In this document: piece by piece, positions 3,777 through 31,771 of the stretch
Position numbering within the stretch: position 1 is the stretch's first letter
How the letters are laid out: every line of letters begins with the position of its first letter
Assembly: GCA_007124745.1 (NCBI GenBank)
Contig: SLEO01000009.1
Span: 1 to 32,675, forward strand
Origin: Myxococcales bacterium
GTDB lineage: Bacteria; Myxococcota_A; Polyangia; Polyangiales; SLQV01
Direction of reading: 5' to 3'
Length of the DNA stretch: 32,675 nt
The notes under the pieces: generated by a model
What the model was told of the DNA's origin: nothing
Seen by the model: the letters and a program-made list of their open reading frames with translations, nothing else
Databases searched by the model: none
Program-made: the position numbers and the translations under genes

Positions 3777-4028
3777 CTACAGGCGCCGGCGAATGACGGC
3801 AGCGAGACTCGCGAAGGTACGCACGTCTTGCATTTCGTAGTCCGGTATCTCGATGCCAAAGGTCGCCTCTACCTCCGTCAACAGCTCCAGCGCCTGGTAG
3901 CTATCGATCTTCAGCGACTCGAAGAGGTCGCTCTCCAGCGCGAGCGTTCCTGGCGCTTTGCCGAAACGGCTCTCCGCCACAGCCATCAGCCGCTTACCTA
4001 CATCATCGTTCCCTAGCTGGCTCATCAT
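3777..4028 (-). CDS. Acyl carrier protein
   Basis: 83 aa with a phosphopantetheine-type DS context (ESLKIDSYQALELLTEVEATFGIEIPDYE). Convergent with the enoyl-CoA hydratase. Confidence 0.88.
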   Translation of the reverse strand: MMSQLGNDDVGKRLMAVAESRFGKAPGTLALESDLFESLKIDSYQALELLTEVEATFGIEIPDYEMQDVRTFASLAAVIRRRL

Positions 4029-4136
4029 GCATCCTTCAGCGTTAGCACCCGCAGTACGCCGTATTCCGTTGCGCCGTTCCCTCGCGGTGAGACGGCGGGG
4101 TAGCAGCGCGTCACTGCCGCAGCAAGCGCGGCTCTT

Positions 4137-5567
4137 GTGGCGCCTGCCATAGGAACCAAGCGCTTCTATGCTAGGTACGCTTGGGTGAATAGGGCGCGAC
4201 AGGCTGCGTGGGCGAGGTGGCTGAGCGACCGGCGTCTCGGGAGCGAAAGTACGGACGACGGCCGGACACGGTACGAAGGCCGTTCGGAGTTTGAGCGCGA
4301 CTACGACCGCATCATCTACAGCAGCGCCTTCCGGCGCATGCAGGACAAGACACAGGTCTTTCCCCTATCGCCGACGGACTACACCCGTACACGCCTCACC
4401 CATAGCCTCGAAGTCTCTACCGTCGGCCGCTCCCTCGGCCAGATGGCCGGGCGTTTCCTTAAAGCCGAGGGGCTGCTCCCGGGGGACGTTTCACGCGCGG
4501 ACCTAGGCACCCTAGTGGCCGCTGCTTGCATCGCCCACGACCTTGGCAACCCGCCCTTCGGGCATGCGGGTGAGGCTGCCATCCAATCGTGGGCGCGGCG
4601 CTGGCTCGATAAGCGGCGGCCCGCGTTGAGTGATGCGGAACGGCTGGACCTGCTGGAGTTTGAAGGCAACGCCCAGGGCTTTCGCATCGTCAGCCGGCTT
4701 CAGGCGCGGGAGCGGCGGGGCGGTTTGCAGAACACCCTCGCCTTCATCGGTACGATGGCCAAGTACCCCGCCGCCTCATGGCCACAAGGCCGTGCCAGGG
4801 ACCTAAGCGTCGCCGCGGAGAAGAAGTTCGGCTACTTTCAGGAGGACAAAGCACTCGCTGAATCCGCCTTCTCCACGCTCGGGTTAGTGCCGGTCGCTGA
4901 AGGTATCTACCGCCGCCACCCCCTCGCCTACCTGATGGAGGCCGCCGATGACGTGTGTTACGGCGTCATCGATATCGAGGACGCCTTCAAACTGCGCCTC
5001 ATCGACTTTACTACCTGCCGCACTCTGCTTGAACCGCTGGCAAAGGCGACGCCCGGCTTCCGCGACCACACGGCGGACTCCCAATCGAGCCGCGTCTCCC
5101 GGCTGCGCGCCGCCGCGATTCACGCGCTGACCGTGGCGTGTTTCGAGGCCTTCAAGGCGCACCTTGAGGACATTGAAGCGGGCACCTTCGCGGGTAGCCT
5201 CATCGACCGTGCCCCCATGATCGACGCCTACCGGGAGCTCATCGATGGCGCGCGCCGCCACGCCTACAACAGCGAGCATGTCGTGCAGGTCGCCTGCGCT
5301 GGCTTCCGGGTCCTGGCAGGCCTCCTTGAGCTCTTCGCCGACGCCCTCACCGCGCCGACGCTTTCGATGCACGACCGCATGCTGCTGCACCTGCTACCAC
5401 TCGAAGGCTTCAGCAGACCCGGTCGCGACTTCACCAGCCTAGACGCCGTCCGCGAACAGCTCACGCCTGCAGAAAAGCTGCTCACGCTGACCGACTACGT
5501 CTCCGGCATGACCGACAGCTACGCCCTCCAACAATACCAGTACCTCTTCGGCATCCGCACCCCCTGA
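4137..5567 (+). CDS. dgt: Deoxyguanosinetriphosphate triphosphohydrolase (dGTPase)
   Basis: RSEFERDYDRIIYSSAFRRMQDKTQVFPL, TRLTHSLEVSTVGRSLG, ACIAHDLGNPPFGHAGE: the HD-domain dGTPase pattern. The true start may be slightly downstream. Confidence 0.93.
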   Translation: MAPAIGTKRFYARYAWVNRARQAAWARWLSDRRLGSESTDDGRTRYEGRSEFERDYDRIIYSSAFRRMQDKTQVFPLSPTDYTRTRLTHSLEVSTVGRSLGQMAGRFLKAEGLLPGDVSRADLGTLVAAACIAHDLGNPPFGHAGEAAIQSWARRWLDKRRPALSDAERLDLLEFEGNAQGFRIVSRLQARERRGGLQNTLAFIGTMAKYPAASWPQGRARDLSVAAEKKFGYFQEDKALAESAFSTLGLVPVAEGIYRRHPLAYLMEAADDVCYGVIDIEDAFKLRLIDFTTCRTLLEPLAKATPGFRDHTADSQSSRVSRLRAAAIHALTVACFEAFKAHLEDIEAGTFAGSLIDRAPMIDAYRELIDGARRHAYNSEHVVQVACAGFRVLAGLLELFADALTAPTLSMHDRMLLHLLPLEGFSRPGRDFTSLDAVREQLTPAEKLLTLTDYVSGMTDSYALQQYQYLFGIRTP

Positions 5568-22637: not shown

Positions 22638-23171
22638 GTGGCTGTACTCGAAATCCTGCGCTACCCCGACCCGCGCCTGCGCAACCCCGGCAAGGTGGTC
22701 ACTGCCTTTGACGACAAGCTCGCAAAGCTTGTCGATGACATGGCGGAAACAATGTACGCCGCGCCGGGCGTTGGGCTTGCGGCGCCGCAGGTGGGCGTCT
22801 CAGCGCGCCTCTACATCATCGACGTGGCCGCGGGCGAGGACGCACCCAGCGAGCTGCGCGTGTTCGTGAACCCGGAGATCGTCGAGAGCCGCGGCGAAAT
22901 CGACTGGGATGAAGGGTGCCTCAGCTTTCCCGGCGCCCGTGAGGAGATCAAGCGCGCTGAGTGGGTACGCGTTCGCGCCCAGGATGCGAGCGGCAAGACC
23001 TTCGAGCTCGAGAGCGACGGTTTGCTCGCCATCGCCATACAGCACGAAGGCGACCACCTCGACGGCAAGTTGATGATCGACCGCATCGGCGTATTGCGCA
23101 AACGCATGCTCCACCGGCGCATGGAAAAGGCCGCGCAGACCGGTCGACGTGCCCTTGAGGGATGTCGCTGA
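22638..23171 (+). CDS. def: Peptide deformylase
   Basis: GVGLAAPQVG, DEGCLSFPG, IAIQHEGDHLDG: all three deformylase motifs, although the third has QHEGDHLDG rather than the usual QHExDHLxG form. Confidence 0.95.
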   Translation: MAVLEILRYPDPRLRNPGKVVTAFDDKLAKLVDDMAETMYAAPGVGLAAPQVGVSARLYIIDVAAGEDAPSELRVFVNPEIVESRGEIDWDEGCLSFPGAREEIKRAEWVRVRAQDASGKTFELESDGLLAIAIQHEGDHLDGKLMIDRIGVLRKRMLHRRMEKAAQTGRRALEGCR

Positions 23172-23211
23172 TGCCACTGCAGCACGCAACCGCAACAAGC
23201 TTCCGCACAGC

Positions 23212-24204
23212 ATGACGGCGATACGCGTTGTCTTTATGGGCACGCCGTCCTTCGCGGTGCCCACGCTCGAAGCCCTTGTCGCGGATGAAGCTTTTGACGT
23301 CCGGGCCGTCGTGACCCAGCCGGATAGACCCGCCGGGCGTGGACAGCGGCTCACGCCATCACCGGTCAAGACCCTGGCCCTCGCCCATGGCTTGGCCCTG
23401 CTCCAACCCGAAAAGATCAATACGCCTCAGGCCTGGCAAGCACTCGAGGCGCTCGGTCCCATCGATTTAGCGGTGGTCGCGGCCTTCGGCCAAATCCTGC
23501 GTCCACACCTGCTGGCGTGGCCCAAGGCTGGCTGCCTGAACGTGCACGCCTCGCTGCTCCCCCGCTGGCGCGGCGCGGCGCCGGTGCCCCACGCCATCCT
23601 CGCGGGTGACGCGGAACTCGGCGTCTCGTTGATGCAGATGGAAGCGGGCATGGACACGGGGCCTATCCTCGCCACACGCGCCCTGCCGGCGAGGCCACCG
23701 CGCGTCGACGGCGCCACCAGCGCCCAGCGAAGTGACGCCCACTACGGCCCTAGCGACTGGGATACGGGGACGGCCCTTGAGGCTCTGGCACACCTCGGCG
23801 CCGCGCTCACCGTTGAGGTCGCACCCCAGTGGGTGTGCGGCACCTGGCCGGCGGAGGCGCAGGACGCTGAGCGGGCGACTTACGCGCCTAAGTTCGACAA
23901 GTCCCTGGGATTCATCGAAACGCAGCGCGACGGCCACACCATCGAACGCATGATTCGCGCGTTCAGTCCGAGCCCGGGTGCATCATTGCTGTGGCAAGGG
24001 CAGCGGCTGAAGGTGCTGTCGGCGGCGCTCTGTCCTCAGCTTCTGCCCGAGCCTCCCCAAGGCGCAACCCTGCGGCGTCTAGGCAAACGCCTCTACCTCG
24101 ATGCGCCGGATGGCAAAGTGCTGCGCATCGAGCGCGTCCAAGTGCCCGGCAAGGCCAGCATGGACGCTGCAACCTTTTTGGCAGGCTACGGAGACCGCAT
24201 TTGA
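23212..24204 (+). CDS. fmt: Methionyl-tRNA formyltransferase
   Basis: IRVVFMGTPSFAVPTLEAL, GCLNVHASLLPRWRGAAPVPHAILAGD. Start at MTAIRV; the ORF track extends upstream to 23149. Confidence 0.95.
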   Translation: MTAIRVVFMGTPSFAVPTLEALVADEAFDVRAVVTQPDRPAGRGQRLTPSPVKTLALAHGLALLQPEKINTPQAWQALEALGPIDLAVVAAFGQILRPHLLAWPKAGCLNVHASLLPRWRGAAPVPHAILAGDAELGVSLMQMEAGMDTGPILATRALPARPPRVDGATSAQRSDAHYGPSDWDTGTALEALAHLGAALTVEVAPQWVCGTWPAEAQDAERATYAPKFDKSLGFIETQRDGHTIERMIRAFSPSPGASLLWQGQRLKVLSAALCPQLLPEPPQGATLRRLGKRLYLDAPDGKVLRIERVQVPGKASMDAATFLAGYGDRI

Positions 24205-24908
24205 AGATCTACACCAAGAGCGGTGACGATGGCACCAGCCGCGACTTCCGCGGCACCTGTGAACGCAAAAGCGCGCGCATCTTCGCGGCGTTGGGTGACC
24301 TCGACGAGAGCAACGCGGCCATCGGCTTAGCCCTCGCCACCCTCACGGCGCCTGCGTCCGCCTCGGGGGCCATCGCCGGACAAGCACCACCGCCCGGCGC
24401 GACGAACAACGCGAAGGGCAACGCGAAGAGCAACGTGAAGGCCGGCGTGAACGGCCCGGCGCACGCAACGCGCATGGATGCGCCAGTCGACGCGGACGCC
24501 CTGCACCCGCACATCAAGGATGTGCAAGCCCTGCTGCGTGCAGCGCAGCCCGCCCTCTTCAGCTGCGGCGCAAGGCTGGCCGGTGCGAAGCGTGACCAAG
24601 TAGGCGGCCTCGACGAAGCGACCGCCGAGCTGGAGCGCTGCATCGACCAGCTCGACAGCCAGCTCCCACCCCTGCGCACCTTCATCCTTCCCGGAGGGTC
24701 CACCGCCGCCGCCCAGCTTCACCTCGCGCGCTGTATCGTGCGGCGCGCCGAACGCAGTCTGAGCGGCCTTGACCTCACCCCCGAAGACGCAGACCTTCAG
24801 CGCTTCATTAACCGCCTAAGCGACGCCCTCTTCGTAGGCGCCCGCGCCACCAACGCCGCCTTAGCCACCCCAGAAGCCCCCTGGCACGCCTCACCCAAGC
24901 CAGCCTAG
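24201..24908 (+). CDS. Cob(I)yrinic acid a,c-diamide adenosyltransferase (PduO-type ATR)
   Basis: KIYTKSGDDGTSRDFRG, GDLDESNAAIGLA, FILPGGSTAAAQLHLARCIVRRAER. TTG start overlaps the fmt stop (TTGA). Confidence 0.88.
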   Translation: MKIYTKSGDDGTSRDFRGTCERKSARIFAALGDLDESNAAIGLALATLTAPASASGAIAGQAPPPGATNNAKGNAKSNVKAGVNGPAHATRMDAPVDADALHPHIKDVQALLRAAQPALFSCGARLAGAKRDQVGGLDEATAELERCIDQLDSQLPPLRTFILPGGSTAAAQLHLARCIVRRAERSLSGLDLTPEDADLQRFINRLSDALFVGARATNAALATPEAPWHASPKPA

Positions 24909-25112: not shown

Positions 25113-25952
25113 CTAGGCAATTAGGCTATCGAGAAGGAACTTAGCGAGCGCCTCGCCTGTGGAGGCGCTCGCGTTCCCAGCGCGAAAGAGCGCCTGATTC
25201 AGCTCGACTTCGATGCCGATGTACGACGCCTCAGCGAAGTGGCGACGGAAGTAGGTTGGCAGCCCGTCGCTGACGCCTCGGTAAGGGTAGTTGCGCCGGA
25301 TGCGCAGCGGTGACTGCATTGCCAGGGTCTCCGCCCAGCGCCGGCAGAGCTCCGCTTCTGGGCTTCGGCGCGGGTCGTAAAGCAACGCGACATCTGCCCG
25401 GCGCTTCTCCCCGTTGAGGTTGGGCGTGAAGGAATGGATGGCGAGGTGGAGCACGGGCATACCGCTTCCACCGGGACCGCGCTTGGCCGCCGTCTGCACA
25501 GCGCGCGGCGTCGTTTCTCGCGATGAGACCGCCACTTGCCCGCGCGCGGGAGAGGAATCCAGATCGACAGCCGCGTCGACCATCGCGAAAGCGCCGTCCG
25601 AAGACTCGGACATCAAACGCTCGCGAATCAGTGCCGTAAGCGCCGCGACGTGAGGCTCCCAATAGCGCTCAAGCAAGTGCTGACGTAGCGCTGCGGGTAG
25701 CTGCCGGCTCTCGTAGGAGAAGCGCGCCGCCCCACGGGTACGGTTGAGGTCGACGACCAAACGGTTCACAACGCCAGCCACAAGCGGGGCGCCCGTCAGC
25801 CGAGCGAGCGCGCGCGCCACCTCAAGCGCACCCGGATCCCATCCGCGATGAGACCTCGCGCGCTCCGGGTCGATGACTAGCTTGCCGTATAGGTCCGGCG
25901 GCAACGCATCGGTCGCATGCTCGCAGGACAGTACAAGACTGAAGGTCGGCAT
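25113..25952 (-). CDS. N-formylglutamate amidohydrolase family protein
   Basis: LVLSCEHATDALPPDLY, VVDLNRTRGA, LHLAIHSFTPNLNGEKRRADVALLYDP, NYPYRGVSDGLPTYFRR, YIGIEVELNQ. Confidence 0.85.
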   Translation of the reverse strand: MPTFSLVLSCEHATDALPPDLYGKLVIDPERARSHRGWDPGALEVARALARLTGAPLVAGVVNRLVVDLNRTRGAARFSYESRQLPAALRQHLLERYWEPHVAALTALIRERLMSESSDGAFAMVDAAVDLDSSPARGQVAVSSRETTPRAVQTAAKRGPGGSGMPVLHLAIHSFTPNLNGEKRRADVALLYDPRRSPEAELCRRWAETLAMQSPLRIRRNYPYRGVSDGLPTYFRRHFAEASYIGIEVELNQALFRAGNASASTGEALAKFLLDSLIA

Positions 25953-25958
25953 GATTTG

Positions 25959-27260
25959 TCAACCCGCCGTCGGGTACTCCGGCAGCCACAAGCGCCCCTC
26001 GGCCTGCGCCTGCGCGAGCTCAACTGCCTGCGCCCTCAGCTGCGCGCGCGTTGGCTGGGCGCCAAGCTGCCGCAACTGTCGCCGAGCGAGCGGCCCTTCG
26101 CGCAGGAGCACCTCAAGCGGCGCTTCCGCGAACTTCGGCAAGTCCAGGTGCGTCCGCGTGCCCGAGGCGCCCTCAAACAGCGCGCGCCACAGACGACCAA
26201 GCGCTACCGGCGCGCGCTGCCCGAAGAGCGCTAACACCTCGGCACTCTCCACGGTCGCCTGCTCACCCTCGCGCACCGCGCGGCGATAGAGCTTTGCGAG
26301 GTCGGTTGTGCTCACAGCTTCTTGCGCCGCCAAGGGCACGAAGCGTTCTTCAACGAGCGCGCGCAGCAGCGCCACCGTCGCCGCCAAGATGCTTATCGCT
26401 GCCAGCGGACACTCCTGCGTGTCGATGATGCGGATCTCGATGGCATTGCGGTCGAAGCGCGCAATCGCGCCTCGGGCATTCAGCCACTCATCCTGAAGAA
26501 TGCCCTCGGGGTCAAAAGGCGCGATGTCTGCGTACATCGGCGCAAGCACATGTTCGCGGTAGTGCGCCTCACTGGTGCTGACATCGGGAATGATGGCGCC
26601 CGCAATCGACGGCAGGCGCGCGGCGTTGGTACCGTATACCTCAAGGCGGTGGTCGAGCTGGCCTCGGTGCACGCCTTCGCAGTAGGGCGAGGCCGCAGCT
26701 AAGGCGGGTAGCAGCGGCAACACGATACGGATGGCAGAGTGCAGCCGGCGGAAACTCTCATCGCTCGCGAACGGCAGATTCAAATGAACGCTCTGGAGGT
26801 TGCACCACCCATGTCCTTTCGAGCCGAAGATGCGGTCGAAGGCTTGATAGATTTCCCGCTGTCCGTGCGGCCAGAGCACGCGCTCTTCCGGCAGCATCCA
26901 GGGGTGCATGCCGCCGGGCAGTAGCGTTGCACCGTGGGGCGCGAGCAGCCCTCGAATCTGCTGTAGCCCCGCGTCAAAATGCTCGGCCAATGGTGCCAGA
27001 CTGGGCGCCGGGCCGTTGGTCTTCAGCTCAATCACATGGCAGACGAGCTCATTGGACCAGGCCAACGGCCCCCGCTCCACCTCCAGGACCACCTCGCCCC
27101 CCGGGCTTTGCAGAAGTTTCTCCGCAAGGGGCAGCACGTCGAAAGTGGCTGCGTCGACAATCATGACCTCAAGCTCAACGCCAAAGGCCTCGAAGAGGTC
27201 GAGAACGCGCGGCGCGCGCACGGTATTGTCCGACTCAGTCATGCAAGCTCCTTCAGGCAC
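25959..27260 (-). CDS. Glutamate-cysteine ligase family 2 (GCS2 / YbdK-like carboxylate-amine ligase)
   Basis: FEAFGVELEVMIVDAATFDVLPLAEKLL; GCNLQSVHLNLPF-type core (GWCNLQSVHLNLPFASDESF); AIEIRIIDTQECP. Confidence 0.82.
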   Translation of the reverse strand: MPEGACMTESDNTVRAPRVLDLFEAFGVELEVMIVDAATFDVLPLAEKLLQSPGGEVVLEVERGPLAWSNELVCHVIELKTNGPAPSLAPLAEHFDAGLQQIRGLLAPHGATLLPGGMHPWMLPEERVLWPHGQREIYQAFDRIFGSKGHGWCNLQSVHLNLPFASDESFRRLHSAIRIVLPLLPALAAASPYCEGVHRGQLDHRLEVYGTNAARLPSIAGAIIPDVSTSEAHYREHVLAPMYADIAPFDPEGILQDEWLNARGAIARFDRNAIEIRIIDTQECPLAAISILAATVALLRALVEERFVPLAAQEAVSTTDLAKLYRRAVREGEQATVESAEVLALFGQRAPVALGRLWRALFEGASGTRTHLDLPKFAEAPLEVLLREGPLARRQLRQLGAQPTRAQLRAQAVELAQAQAEGRLWLPEYPTAG

Positions 27261-27266
27261 ACTCCT

Positions 27267-28835
27267 TCATGCACGTTCCGGCAAGCCGCGCAGGGCCGTG
27301 ATGCGAGCGATGAACTTCTCCAAAATGCGGTCGTACAACGCCTCGCCGGTCACCTGGTCTTCAATCCCACCATCGATGTTAGGATTATCGTTCACTTCAA
27401 TCACGATAGGCTGACCATCGACTTCTTTCAGGTCTACGCCATAAAGCCCCTGTCCAATGAGGGACGTCGCTGCCAAAGCCGTGCGCTTCACGGCCTCCGG
27501 CGCTGCCTCCACCGGCAGCGTTTCAAACAGCCCATCGCTCAGCTTCTTGCCCGCTGCATCGCGTTGAACGATTTGCCAATGACTGCGCGCCATATGGTAG
27601 CGACACACGAAGAGCACTTCGCCTTCCATCACCCCCACTCGCCAGTCGAAGGACGTCGGTACGAAGGCTTGAGCCACCACAAGCTCCGAGGTCTTGAGCA
27701 ACTGGCGGGCGCGCTCCGCCAGCGCGTCGCGCGTTGAGACTTTGAATACGCCGGCTGAAAAGCTCGAATCCGGCATCTTCAGCACGCAGGGCAAGGGAAG
27801 CTGTTCGAGCAAGGCGCCGAGCTTCGGTTTTGAGAGCACCCAGGTCTGGGGCATCGGAACTTTGTGTTTTCGAAAGAGCTCCGCCTGGTAGACCTTATTC
27901 GAGCAGCGAACGATGTCCTCGGGTGCATCGATCACAAAAAGGCCGGCCCCTTTCGCTGCCTGCGCAAAGCGGTAGGTGTGATGATGGACCGCAGTCGTCT
28001 GGCGAATGAAGAGCGCATCGAAGGCCGGGACGCGCGGCAAATCGCTCGGCCCGATCAACTCAACGCCGAGACCTAGACGTTCCCCGGCCCGCACGAAGCA
28101 CTTCAGTGCACGTTCATTGGAAGGCGACTCGCGTTCCTGGGGGTCGCGGAGAATCGCGAGGTCAAAGCGCGTCGCACTTCGTCCGGTGACCGGTCCCGCC
28201 CCCGGGCTGCGCGGTGCGCCGAGCCATTCGGCCACCCGCTCCTTCGCCAGCGGCGAGAGTTCGCGCAGCTCGGGACTGAGCCGCCATAGACTCCAGGATT
28301 CCGCACTCGGCACGTAGCGGAAGGTCGCCACCAAGAAGGGCGCGGGAAAGGTACGAAACAGAAGGCGCGCGAGACTCGCCGCCTTGGGCTCATCGCTTTG
28401 GCCAAAGGCGACTTCCAGGTGGCGCACCTCGCCGCGCGTGCCGCGTCCCCACGTGCGACTTGCAAGCCGCTCCACCTGCGCACGCGCCGACCGCGATAGT
28501 GTCGCATGCTTGATGTCCTGAAGTGTGGCGAGGGTCGGGAGGGGCTTAAAGCCGCGCGCCTCGGCGAGAAGCGAGACGTAGTAACCGATACGCTGATAGC
28601 GATAGGAACGACACAGATTCACCACGCGGCTTGCCCCTCGACCCAGGCTTTCGTCCTCTAGAAACGCTCGCGCGGTGACGACCTGAGAGCGCGGGCTCAG
28701 CGCCGGCCAGAGCGTCGCGTCCTCGACGACGATGAGGCTGGCGCGCTTCTCCGGCTTGCTCACTAGCGCTGGCGTTTGGATGCCTTCGCTGCACACAGGA
28801 GCCTTATCGCGAAGGGCATCAATCGAAGGGCACAT
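27267..28835 (-). CDS. RimK-like ATP-grasp ligase with N-terminal RLAN-type domain
   Basis: N-terminal alpha/beta region (VVNLCRSYRYQRIGYYVSLLAEARGFKPLPTLATLQDIKH). ATP-grasp core: PCVLKMPDSSFSAGVFKV, VAQAFVPTSFDWRVGVMEGEVLFVCRYHM, GVDLKEVDGQPIVIEVNDNPNIDGGIED. Confidence 0.88.
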   Translation of the reverse strand: MCPSIDALRDKAPVCSEGIQTPALVSKPEKRASLIVVEDATLWPALSPRSQVVTARAFLEDESLGRGASRVVNLCRSYRYQRIGYYVSLLAEARGFKPLPTLATLQDIKHATLSRSARAQVERLASRTWGRGTRGEVRHLEVAFGQSDEPKAASLARLLFRTFPAPFLVATFRYVPSAESWSLWRLSPELRELSPLAKERVAEWLGAPRSPGAGPVTGRSATRFDLAILRDPQERESPSNERALKCFVRAGERLGLGVELIGPSDLPRVPAFDALFIRQTTAVHHHTYRFAQAAKGAGLFVIDAPEDIVRCSNKVYQAELFRKHKVPMPQTWVLSKPKLGALLEQLPLPCVLKMPDSSFSAGVFKVSTRDALAERARQLLKTSELVVAQAFVPTSFDWRVGVMEGEVLFVCRYHMARSHWQIVQRDAAGKKLSDGLFETLPVEAAPEAVKRTALAATSLIGQGLYGVDLKEVDGQPIVIEVNDNPNIDGGIEDQVTGEALYDRILEKFIARITALRGLPERA

Positions 28836-28901
28836 GGTTCATTTCCAGAGGCTTTGGGTTAGGTTCGAAGCATGAAGCCATCTGGCAGAGGTGGGACTGC
28901 A

Positions 28902-29651
28902 TCACGCCTCCTCGGCGGGCTCAACCGCGAGCACGTTGCCGTCGTACGTCAGTACGCCCAGATAGATGGCGCCGATCAATCGGTGGACATCGACTTGGTA
29001 GGTTTGATTAAGCGATGCCATAGGGTTGGGGCGCAGCGGGTCCGCAACCGTCACCGTGCCTTCGACCTCATCGAAGCCTGTTAAGACCACGAAGTGCCCG
29101 GAAGGTTCGCCCCGCAGGTCGTCGTAGTCGCAGTTGGGACCGAACTCGCGGGCGGTGCGGTAAAGGAACGTCGCCGAGAGGCCTACCAAGAGGGGTCGGC
29201 CGCGCGCCAGGTATCTTCGGAATAGCTCGGGCGTTAGTTCCCCGAGGCGCAGCTCGCCACCGAGGCGACAAAACTCCGCATAGGCGCGCGTGGCTACCTT
29301 GATTTTGGCGCCGCCCTTGTAGCGCATTTGCGCTTCGAGCTTCTGGATAAGGAAAGGCGAGACGCCCTGCACGAACCAAGTCGGGTCGAAGATCTGCAGG
29401 TTGCAGGTGTAGAGCGTCGCCTTGAAGCCCGCAGCGAGCGCGTGCTGCCCGAGAAGTGGCCCAAGGGTCCCGCCCCCCGCCACCATGGGCACATCCCCGA
29501 TGACCTCTGTCAGCGAGGCCTTGTGGCCGTAGTAGCGATACACCGCATGCAACGCCGTCGGCCCGCACGTAAGCTCATCGGGTTGCGCATCGATCTCTAA
29601 ACGCCGCACGTCCACCTTGCCGGCTCGCCGTGCACCACTAGTCCGCCACAA
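28902..29651 (-). CDS. C39-like (papain-fold) peptidase family protein
   Basis: QPDELTCGPTALHAVYRYYG (Cys), GHFVVLTGFDEVEGTVTVADPL (His/Asp): a C39-type catalytic layout. Confidence 0.78.
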   Translation of the reverse strand: MWRTSGARRAGKVDVRRLEIDAQPDELTCGPTALHAVYRYYGHKASLTEVIGDVPMVAGGGTLGPLLGQHALAAGFKATLYTCNLQIFDPTWFVQGVSPFLIQKLEAQMRYKGGAKIKVATRAYAEFCRLGGELRLGELTPELFRRYLARGRPLLVGLSATFLYRTAREFGPNCDYDDLRGEPSGHFVVLTGFDEVEGTVTVADPLRPNPMASLNQTYQVDVHRLIGAIYLGVLTYDGNVLAVEPAEEA

Positions 29652-30079: not shown

Positions 30080-31771
30080 ATGAGGGCGGCAGAGGAGGTG
30101 CGTGCCCGGATACCCTCGGTGGCTATGTCCGTTCACGCCGCGCCGCCACGCCTGGGCCTTCAGGTCGCTGCGGCGCAACCGCACTTGCCCCTAGGTCGCC
30201 TAGCTAGACGCGCCGAACCGGCGTCCCTGCCGAGCATCCCGGCGCAGAACCCGCTGCAGCAGGAGCATAGTGGTCTACGGCGGCTCTCGCCGCCCGCCCG
30301 CACGAGGGATGCAGCGCAGCTCGACGTTCAGCGCATCCGGCGGCTAGGCTGGAGCGCTGCCACCATCCTGGGCACGGCCATGGCCGGCCATGCGCTTCTA
30401 GAAACCGCGCGAGACGCCCTCTTTCTTAGAGCGCTTCCCGCCACGCGACTGCCTTGGGCATATCTCATGATTGCCGCGCTGACCGGACTCTTCATTCGGA
30501 AGCGGCGGCGGGGGGGGGGACCATCCGTAGGGAAGCGTGACAGCCAGCGGGAGCGGCTCATGTCGACCCTACTCCTCGTGGCGGTCGGGACGGCACTGGC
30601 GGGTCTCACGCTCGCACATCGTTCTGGCCTCGCCGCCTTCGGCTTTTACGTGTGGACGGGCATCGCGGCCACCCTCACCGCACTGCGTTTCTGGGTACTG
30701 CTCGGGAGGTCGGTAAATCGCCGCAGCGCCGAACGGCTCTACGGACCCATCGCCGTCGGCGGCTCACTGGGCGCGGCGCTAGGGGCGCTTTTTGCGAGCG
30801 GCCTCCTGCGTCACTTCGAACCCGAGGCGCTCATCATTTTCGCCAGCGCCTTCTTCGCCGCAGCGGCGGCGCTCGCCGCATGGCTTCCGGCAGATGCGCC
30901 GGCCAGCACTGCCGAAGACGTCGTCCCGGCGGCTCAGAATGGGAGCACGCCTGCACTGGACGCCACCAACCAGCATACCGCGCACCCGGTGGTGAGCGGC
31001 GAGGCAAGCGGTCGATGGGCAGGCAGTCGTGACCCACGGCTGCCTAGCCAAGCGTCGCGTGAAGCAAGCGGCTGTGGCGTCCCTGGCGGCACTCGGACAA
31101 CCGCTCAGGGACTCGATAAACGCAACACGCTTCCGTCTCGGGCCTCCGCGGAAGCGCGGGTGGGCTCGTGGGATCTGCTTCGTGACCCGTTGGTTCTAAC
31201 CCTCGCGACACTGGGCTTTTGCGCCACACTAACGCTCACCGCTGCGGACTATCTCGTGAAGGCCGCGGTCGCTGCGGAGATCAGCGGCGACGCACTCGGA
31301 CCGTTCTTCGCCAAACTCTATGCCGCATTAAATCTTGCGTGCCTTGGCGTGCAGGTGATCGTTGCGCCGTGGTTTCTGCGCGTGATGGGTGTCACGCGCT
31401 CATTGGCGGCTCTTCCACTCTTGATGCTTTCCGCCACACTTGGTCTCGTCGTTCTCGGCGGCCTGGTTCCCGTGTTGATGCTGAAGGCCGCTGACGGCGC
31501 GCTTCGCGGGCCGGTGTATCGCACCGCATCGGAGGTGCTTTACGTCCACCTGCCGGGCGAAACGCTGGAGCGTGTCAAGGCGCTCATCGACAGCGCGGGC
31601 CACCGCATCGCCCAAGCCGTCGCCTCGTTGATGTTGCTGGTCGCGGCCTCCCTCGGCCTCGGTCTGCACCAACTCGCTCTAGCCCTGCTCGTGCTCGGCG
31701 TAGCCTGGCTTGGCTGCGTGCTTTGGCTCATCCCGCGTCGGGCCGACGGGCACCACAGCGTCAACACGTGA
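30080..31771 (+). CDS. MFS-type transporter resembling the Npt1/Npt2 (TLC ATP/ADP) nucleotide transporter family
   Basis: HALLETARDALFLRALPATRLPWAYLMIA, RLYGPIAVGGSLGAALGALFASGLL, DALGPFFAKLYAALNLACLGVQVI; about 11-12 hydrophobic helices. True start is probably downstream (e.g. MSVHAAPPR). Confidence 0.6.
   Translation: MRAAEEVRARIPSVAMSVHAAPPRLGLQVAAAQPHLPLGRLARRAEPASLPSIPAQNPLQQEHSGLRRLSPPARTRDAAQLDVQRIRRLGWSAATILGTAMAGHALLETARDALFLRALPATRLPWAYLMIAALTGLFIRKRRRGGGPSVGKRDSQRERLMSTLLLVAVGTALAGLTLAHRSGLAAFGFYVWTGIAATLTALRFWVLLGRSVNRRSAERLYGPIAVGGSLGAALGALFASGLLRHFEPEALIIFASAFFAAAAALAAWLPADAPASTAEDVVPAAQNGSTPALDATNQHTAHPVVSGEASGRWAGSRDPRLPSQASREASGCGVPGGTRTTAQGLDKRNTLPSRASAEARVGSWDLLRDPLVLTLATLGFCATLTLTAADYLVKAAVAAEISGDALGPFFAKLYAALNLACLGVQVIVAPWFLRVMGVTRSLAALPLLMLSATLGLVVLGGLVPVLMLKAADGALRGPVYRTASEVLYVHLPGETLERVKALIDSAGHRIAQAVASLMLLVAASLGLGLHQLALALLVLGVAWLGCVLWLIPRRADGHHSVNT
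30510..30519. repeat. Poly-G(10) homopolymer inside the transporter CDS
   Basis: CGGCGGCGGGGGGGGGGACC, encoding RRRGGGP. Confidence 0.85.

Follow-up and report, generated by a model that had tools for sequence, protein, structure and literature searches.

A conserved operon pairing two amide-forming ligases with two hydrolases in a Myxococcales bacterium, and its candidate role in making a small amide-linked compound

Four minus-strand genes in a 32,675-nucleotide stretch of DNA from a Myxococcales bacterium (GenBank assembly GCA_007124745.1, contig SLEO01000009.1; this whole stretch is hereafter called the window) encode a C39-like peptidase, an RLAN/RimK-type ATP-grasp ligase, a GCS2-family ligase and an FGase-family amidohydrolase. 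These genes almost certainly serve one pathway, because at least six phyla have kept the four enzyme genes as a linked set with a shared order. With moderate confidence we read them as a single cytoplasmic pathway that assembles a small amide-linked, (iso)peptide-like compound and trims it. More tentatively, the set could represent a widespread bacterial pathway to a new class of small amide-linked peptides, in which GCS2 and GNAT would be interchangeable as second enzymes, each with matched deblocking hydrolases (FGase, or a DUF2817 protein at one GNAT-form locus). Retention of the enzyme set over such phylogenetic breadth implies a useful product.

Gene arrangement and enzyme families

An ORF check on the window located all four genes on the minus strand with intergenic gaps of 66, 6 and 6 nt, in agreement with the compact operon described in an earlier note made from the sequence alone. 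The family names given there were also upheld by profile searches, all Pfam assignments of the four proteins exceeding curated cut-offs (E-values of 2.7e-9 for Peptidase_C39_2, 4.7e-33 for RLAN, 4.8e-8 for RimK, 4e-31 for GCS2 and 3.7e-24 for FGase). None of the four proteins reached an equivalog cut-off in an NCBIfam search, and therefore none is a recognised housekeeping enzyme; the presence of separate glutathione synthase and glutamate-cysteine ligase (GCL) genes in the same genome points the same way. Predicted catalytic positions, chosen among the invariant residues by what is generally known of the families, were invariant in all four families (alignments of 39–56 sequences per family). 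A promoter and terminator scan gave no signal above chance.

The first gene encodes a C39-like papain-fold cysteine peptidase, and its start was revised. The TTG at 29651, at which the note had begun the gene, is probably too early: a close relative (L031, about 90% identical) aligns from an in-frame GTG (GTG-CGG-CGT-TTA) that matches position 29609, and in this relative no in-frame start stands shortly before that codon, which favours GTG 29609 as the start and 28902–29609 (minus strand) as the probable extent of the gene. When read from this codon, the protein has no signal peptide by eye and is probably cytoplasmic. Residues Q23, C29, H186 and D204 (numbered from the TTG start) were invariant in 56 C39 sequences. 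This predicted Q/C/H/D active site, seen in the alignment, and a papain-like fold, seen in the structural matches of the model, together place the protein among C39-like papain-fold peptidases. An AlphaFold2 model (pLDDT 91.8) was best matched by Foldseek to the C39 leader peptidases PCAT1/ComA, then to the pseudomurein endoisopeptidase PeiR and to phytochelatin synthase, all of these matches being remote (11–17% identity). The protein does not fit the bacteriocin-processing type, which is fused to an ABC transporter and acts on a double-glycine leader, since it stands alone with no transporter or conserved precursor nearby.

The second gene (27267–28835, minus strand) codes for a protein of 522 aa, which combines an RLAN domain (residues 56–187; PF14401, 114.4 bits, cut-off 25) with a RimK-type ATP-grasp ligase (residues 312–489; PF08443, 33.3 bits, cut-off 21). 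Five positions, K314, K353, D468, E480 and N482, were invariant in 50 RLAN-RimK sequences and correspond to the predicted ATP-grasp lysines and D/E/N metal positions. Structure comparison of a predicted model of the ATP-grasp part (pLDDT 86.8) placed it closest to ArgX/LysX, D-Ala-D-Ala ligase and RimK structures. The protein does not qualify as the RimK alpha-L-glutamate ligase responsible for RpsF modification (TIGR00768, 58.5 bits versus 143.4; PRK10446, 17.8 versus 331).

A GCS2-family (YbdK-like) carboxylate-amine ligase of 433 aa is encoded at 25959–27260 (minus strand). It scored 108.9 bits against PF04107 (cut-off 21), and the GCS2 profile matched YbdK (1r8g) and, remotely, plant GCL. 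Invariant positions in 40 GCS2 sequences were E29, E31, N70, E71, H75, E78, K80, H150, Q156, N161, R205, E275 and R277, and the conserved positions include the E.E and EIR..D motifs. Equivalog status as GshA or EgtA was not reached (best score 48 bits versus 371; TIGR02048, 36.5 versus 249). The last gene (25113–25952, minus strand) encodes a 279-aa amidohydrolase whose FGase profile matched 2odf, its nearest solved relative and itself a hypothetical protein, at 8.5e-38, and in which E11, H12, D39, R64, N70, R71, H169, H173 and E248 were invariant across 39 FGase sequences. The name ‘N-formylglutamate amidohydrolase’ given to it earlier holds as a family label only: membership of the FGase family stood, whereas identity with HutG, the N-formylglutamate deformylase of histidine breakdown, was rejected (TIGR02017, 17.8 bits versus a cut-off of 278.75). 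The source genome encodes a second FGase outside the operon.

Conservation of the cassette and exchange of its second enzyme

A RLAN-RimK profile scan of genome contigs recovered at least 581 confirmed relatives, the best 80 of which were analysed; these 80 and a further 22 strong Myxococcota matches (window included) were then searched by profile for each of the four proteins. In this neighbourhood survey, of the kind suggested in the earlier note, the four families did co-occur beyond the source genome: among the matches listed, all four genes were present together in at least 47 loci, with the order C39 > RLAN-RimK > GCS2 > FGase in nearly all of them. These four-gene loci came from at least six phyla (Pseudomonadota, Planctomycetota, Bacteroidota, Myxococcota, Thermodesulfobacteriota and Balneolota), and RLAN-RimK with GCS2 was also seen, among the matches listed, in Acidobacteriota, Nitrospirota, Krumholzibacteriota, Sumerlaeota and Tectimicrobiota. 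Cultured hosts of the enzyme set include Legionella, Thiobacillus, Roseivirga and Rufibacter. Across the surveyed loci the cassette genes mostly overlap or stand a few tens of bases apart, GCS2-to-FGase gap lengths being left out as inflated by split domain matches. FGase adjoins GCS2 in 50 of the 50 FGase-bearing loci among the matches listed and is never found there without it. Many of the listed loci have no FGase or no C39 gene, so that not all four genes are always needed; some gene absences reflect contig ends.

Since these loci had been chosen by RLAN, each family was searched independently in 284 Myxococcota genomes. RLAN-RimK was detected in 22 genomes. All 21 genomes with the GCS2 subfamily, and likewise all 16 with the C39 subfamily, fell inside this set of 22 (hypergeometric p = 7e-31 for GCS2 and 1e-21 for C39, kinship ignored), with co-occurring hits spread over about 20 genera. 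The sole RLAN genome without GCS2 (G010) carries the GNAT form (L016). In another genome (G081), RLAN, C39 and a pair of neighbouring GCS2 and FGase genes are all present, although spread over different contigs. The association of FGase is looser, its high-scoring subfamily being present without RLAN or GCS2 in at least two Myxococcota genomes (G173 and G240). Conserved order and nested co-occurrence support the view, put forward in the note, of a single operon acting in one pathway. Clustering of all flanking ORFs revealed no further conserved gene family around the cassette outside near relatives, the clusters consisting of taxon-local families and shadow ORFs only, and no conserved small precursor ORF (18–110 codons) was found next to the cassette beyond near relatives.

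In several Myxococcota (L019, L020 and L022), RLAN, RimK and GCS2 share a single open frame some 1000 codons long, which suggests successive action of the two ligases. At 13 RLAN loci among the matches listed, a GNAT acyltransferase stands in place of GCS2. The two partners were almost exclusive (Fisher 4e-9), the sole locus with both (L041) having a weak GNAT match, and a rapid phylogeny of 101 RLAN-RimK proteins, many of whose deep branches were weakly supported, indicated about three GCS2/GNAT partner exchanges. One GNAT-form locus (L108) displays a fusion of GNAT to a C39-like DUF3335 domain, beside a DUF2817 protein weakly resembling the M14-type amidase MpaA. As GNAT takes the place of GCS2 elsewhere, the second enzyme may cap or extend an RLAN-RimK intermediate.

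Proposed pathway and competing explanations

The linked gene unit, the ligase fusions and the invariant residues were observed, and the reaction steps that follow are inferred. In the pathway that we favour, a single small (iso)peptide-like intermediate would be worked on by the two ligases one after the other and trimmed or deblocked by the two hydrolases. The RLAN-RimK ATP-grasp enzyme would convert a carboxylate into an activated acyl phosphate before joining it to an amino group; GCS2 would add another amide bond to this intermediate, with GNAT serving instead as the capping or extending second enzyme in GNAT lineages. The FGase-family enzyme, presumably metal-dependent, would take off the acyl or glutamyl group placed by GCS2, and the C39-like cysteine peptidase could cut or transfer, inside the cell, a peptide or isopeptide bond in the substrate or product. 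A non-ribosomal substrate is favoured because, beyond near relatives, no conserved extra gene or small precursor ORF accompanies the cassette.

Protein tagging is a live rival because the closest ATP-grasp folds act on a protein C-terminus, ArgX/LysX ligating to the carrier protein LysW and RimK adding Glu to RpsF. RLAN-RimK and GCS2 would then attach amino acids at the C-terminus or at a side chain of a cellular protein, and C39 and FGase would take these off again, an arrangement consistent with the pairing of ligases and hydrolases in one operon and with the match of the C39 model to the endoisopeptidase PeiR. However, the likeness of C39 to isopeptidases is remote, and no conserved gene for a carrier or substrate protein was found with the cassette among flanking-ORF clusters or small ORFs. 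Unlike LysX/ArgX and RimK, the operon enzyme has an extra RLAN domain, and its scores fall well short of the equivalog thresholds for LysX and RimK. Functionally characterised GCS2 enzymes (GshA/EgtA/YbdK) use, to our knowledge, small molecules, which also counts against a protein substrate, and we regard tagging as possible but doubtful. If the substrate were instead a ribosomal peptide, the ATP-grasp enzyme would install amide bonds in a precursor in the manner of graspetides, and the leader would be removed by C39; C39 peptidases do cleave leaders, and the graspetide ligase PsnB was among the ATP-grasp fold matches. This is nonetheless highly improbable, given that small ORFs (18–110 codons) beside the cassette are conserved only in near relatives, that no ABC transporter partner was found among flanking genes and that we know of no graspetide cluster with GCS2 or FGase among its parts.

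Glutathione synthesis (GCL plus GshB, or the GshF fusion) likewise combines a carboxylate-amine ligase with an ATP-grasp enzyme, with fusions known. A glutathione or gamma-Glu-Cys thiol pathway, in which GCS2 would serve as glutamate-cysteine ligase and glutathione synthase activity would come from the ATP-grasp enzyme, would use the same fold pair as the plant/cyanobacterial route and would fit the remote likeness of GCS2 to plant GCL and the match of the C39 model to phytochelatin synthase, a glutathione user. It is very unlikely, however, because the source genome has separate genes elsewhere for a glutathione synthase (L111, 315 bits versus an equivalog cut-off of 272) and for a plant/proteobacterial-type GCL (L112). 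The operon enzymes lie outside those subfamilies, GCS2 falling far below every GshA equivalog cut-off, and the GNAT swap is ill-suited to a thiol tripeptide. The chance adjacency of four unrelated housekeeping enzymes, which the family names by themselves might suggest, has a negligible probability and was ruled out by gene order over at least six phyla, by the fusions and by nested genome co-occurrence.

For linked amidoligases, roles in peptide synthesis or tagging were reportedly predicted by Iyer et al. in 2009. The RLAN/RimK neighbourhoods reported there resemble the operon in having RLAN on a RimK-like ATP-grasp protein, another amide-forming enzyme and peptidases; the fusions, the nested co-occurrence and the exchange between GCS2 and GNAT are results of the present analysis. 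The GNAT form recalls the N-acetylglutaminylglutamine amide (NAGGN) solute pathway, of which TIGR03103 is the GNAT-ATP-grasp enzyme. That pathway is alike in principle (ATP-grasp, a second acyl-transferring enzyme and a peptidase), but the cassette has a different ATP-grasp subfamily and no conserved amidotransferase. PMC10318531, citing Iyer et al. 2009, presents GNAT-DUF3335 fusions as possible peptide ligases, and this GNAT-C39 form was also found here, at L108; ATP-grasp genes operonically linked to COOH-NH2 ligases or GNAT are described in PMC4431377. Full-text literature searches, whose coverage did not extend to the 2009 amidoligase paper, found no publication on this gene set.

Atypical loci and genes around the operon

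One locus (L017; G169:C7) has the changed order RLAN > C39 > GCS2 > FGase, and its genome carries a second GCS2 copy on contig C117. In one divergent member (L079:1135-2307), a second RimK-like ATP-grasp gene is situated directly upstream of the C39 gene. The Pseudomonas aeruginosa plasmid pZYPA1927 (L117) carries RLAN-RimK alone at 3902–5491, with no GCS2, GNAT or C39 annotated beside it. Two metagenome-assembled genomes, titled Klebsiella pneumoniae (L102) and Rhizobium sp. (L055), have RLAN proteins that group with unnamed gammaproteobacteria and with Thiobacillus, respectively; because these titles do not fit the tree placements, the records are likely mislabelled or mixed bins.

Within the window, a 476-aa ORF at 4137–5567 had no Pfam match at 1e-5. 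Just past the 3' end of the operon and convergent with it, plus-strand genes at 22638–24905 encode peptide deformylase, methionyl-tRNA formyltransferase and cobalamin adenosyltransferase; the position of these formyl/deformyl neighbours beside an FGase operon is probably coincidental. Divergent from the operon, a 563-aa membrane-protein-like ORF at 30080–31771, also with no Pfam match at 1e-5, could encode a transporter.
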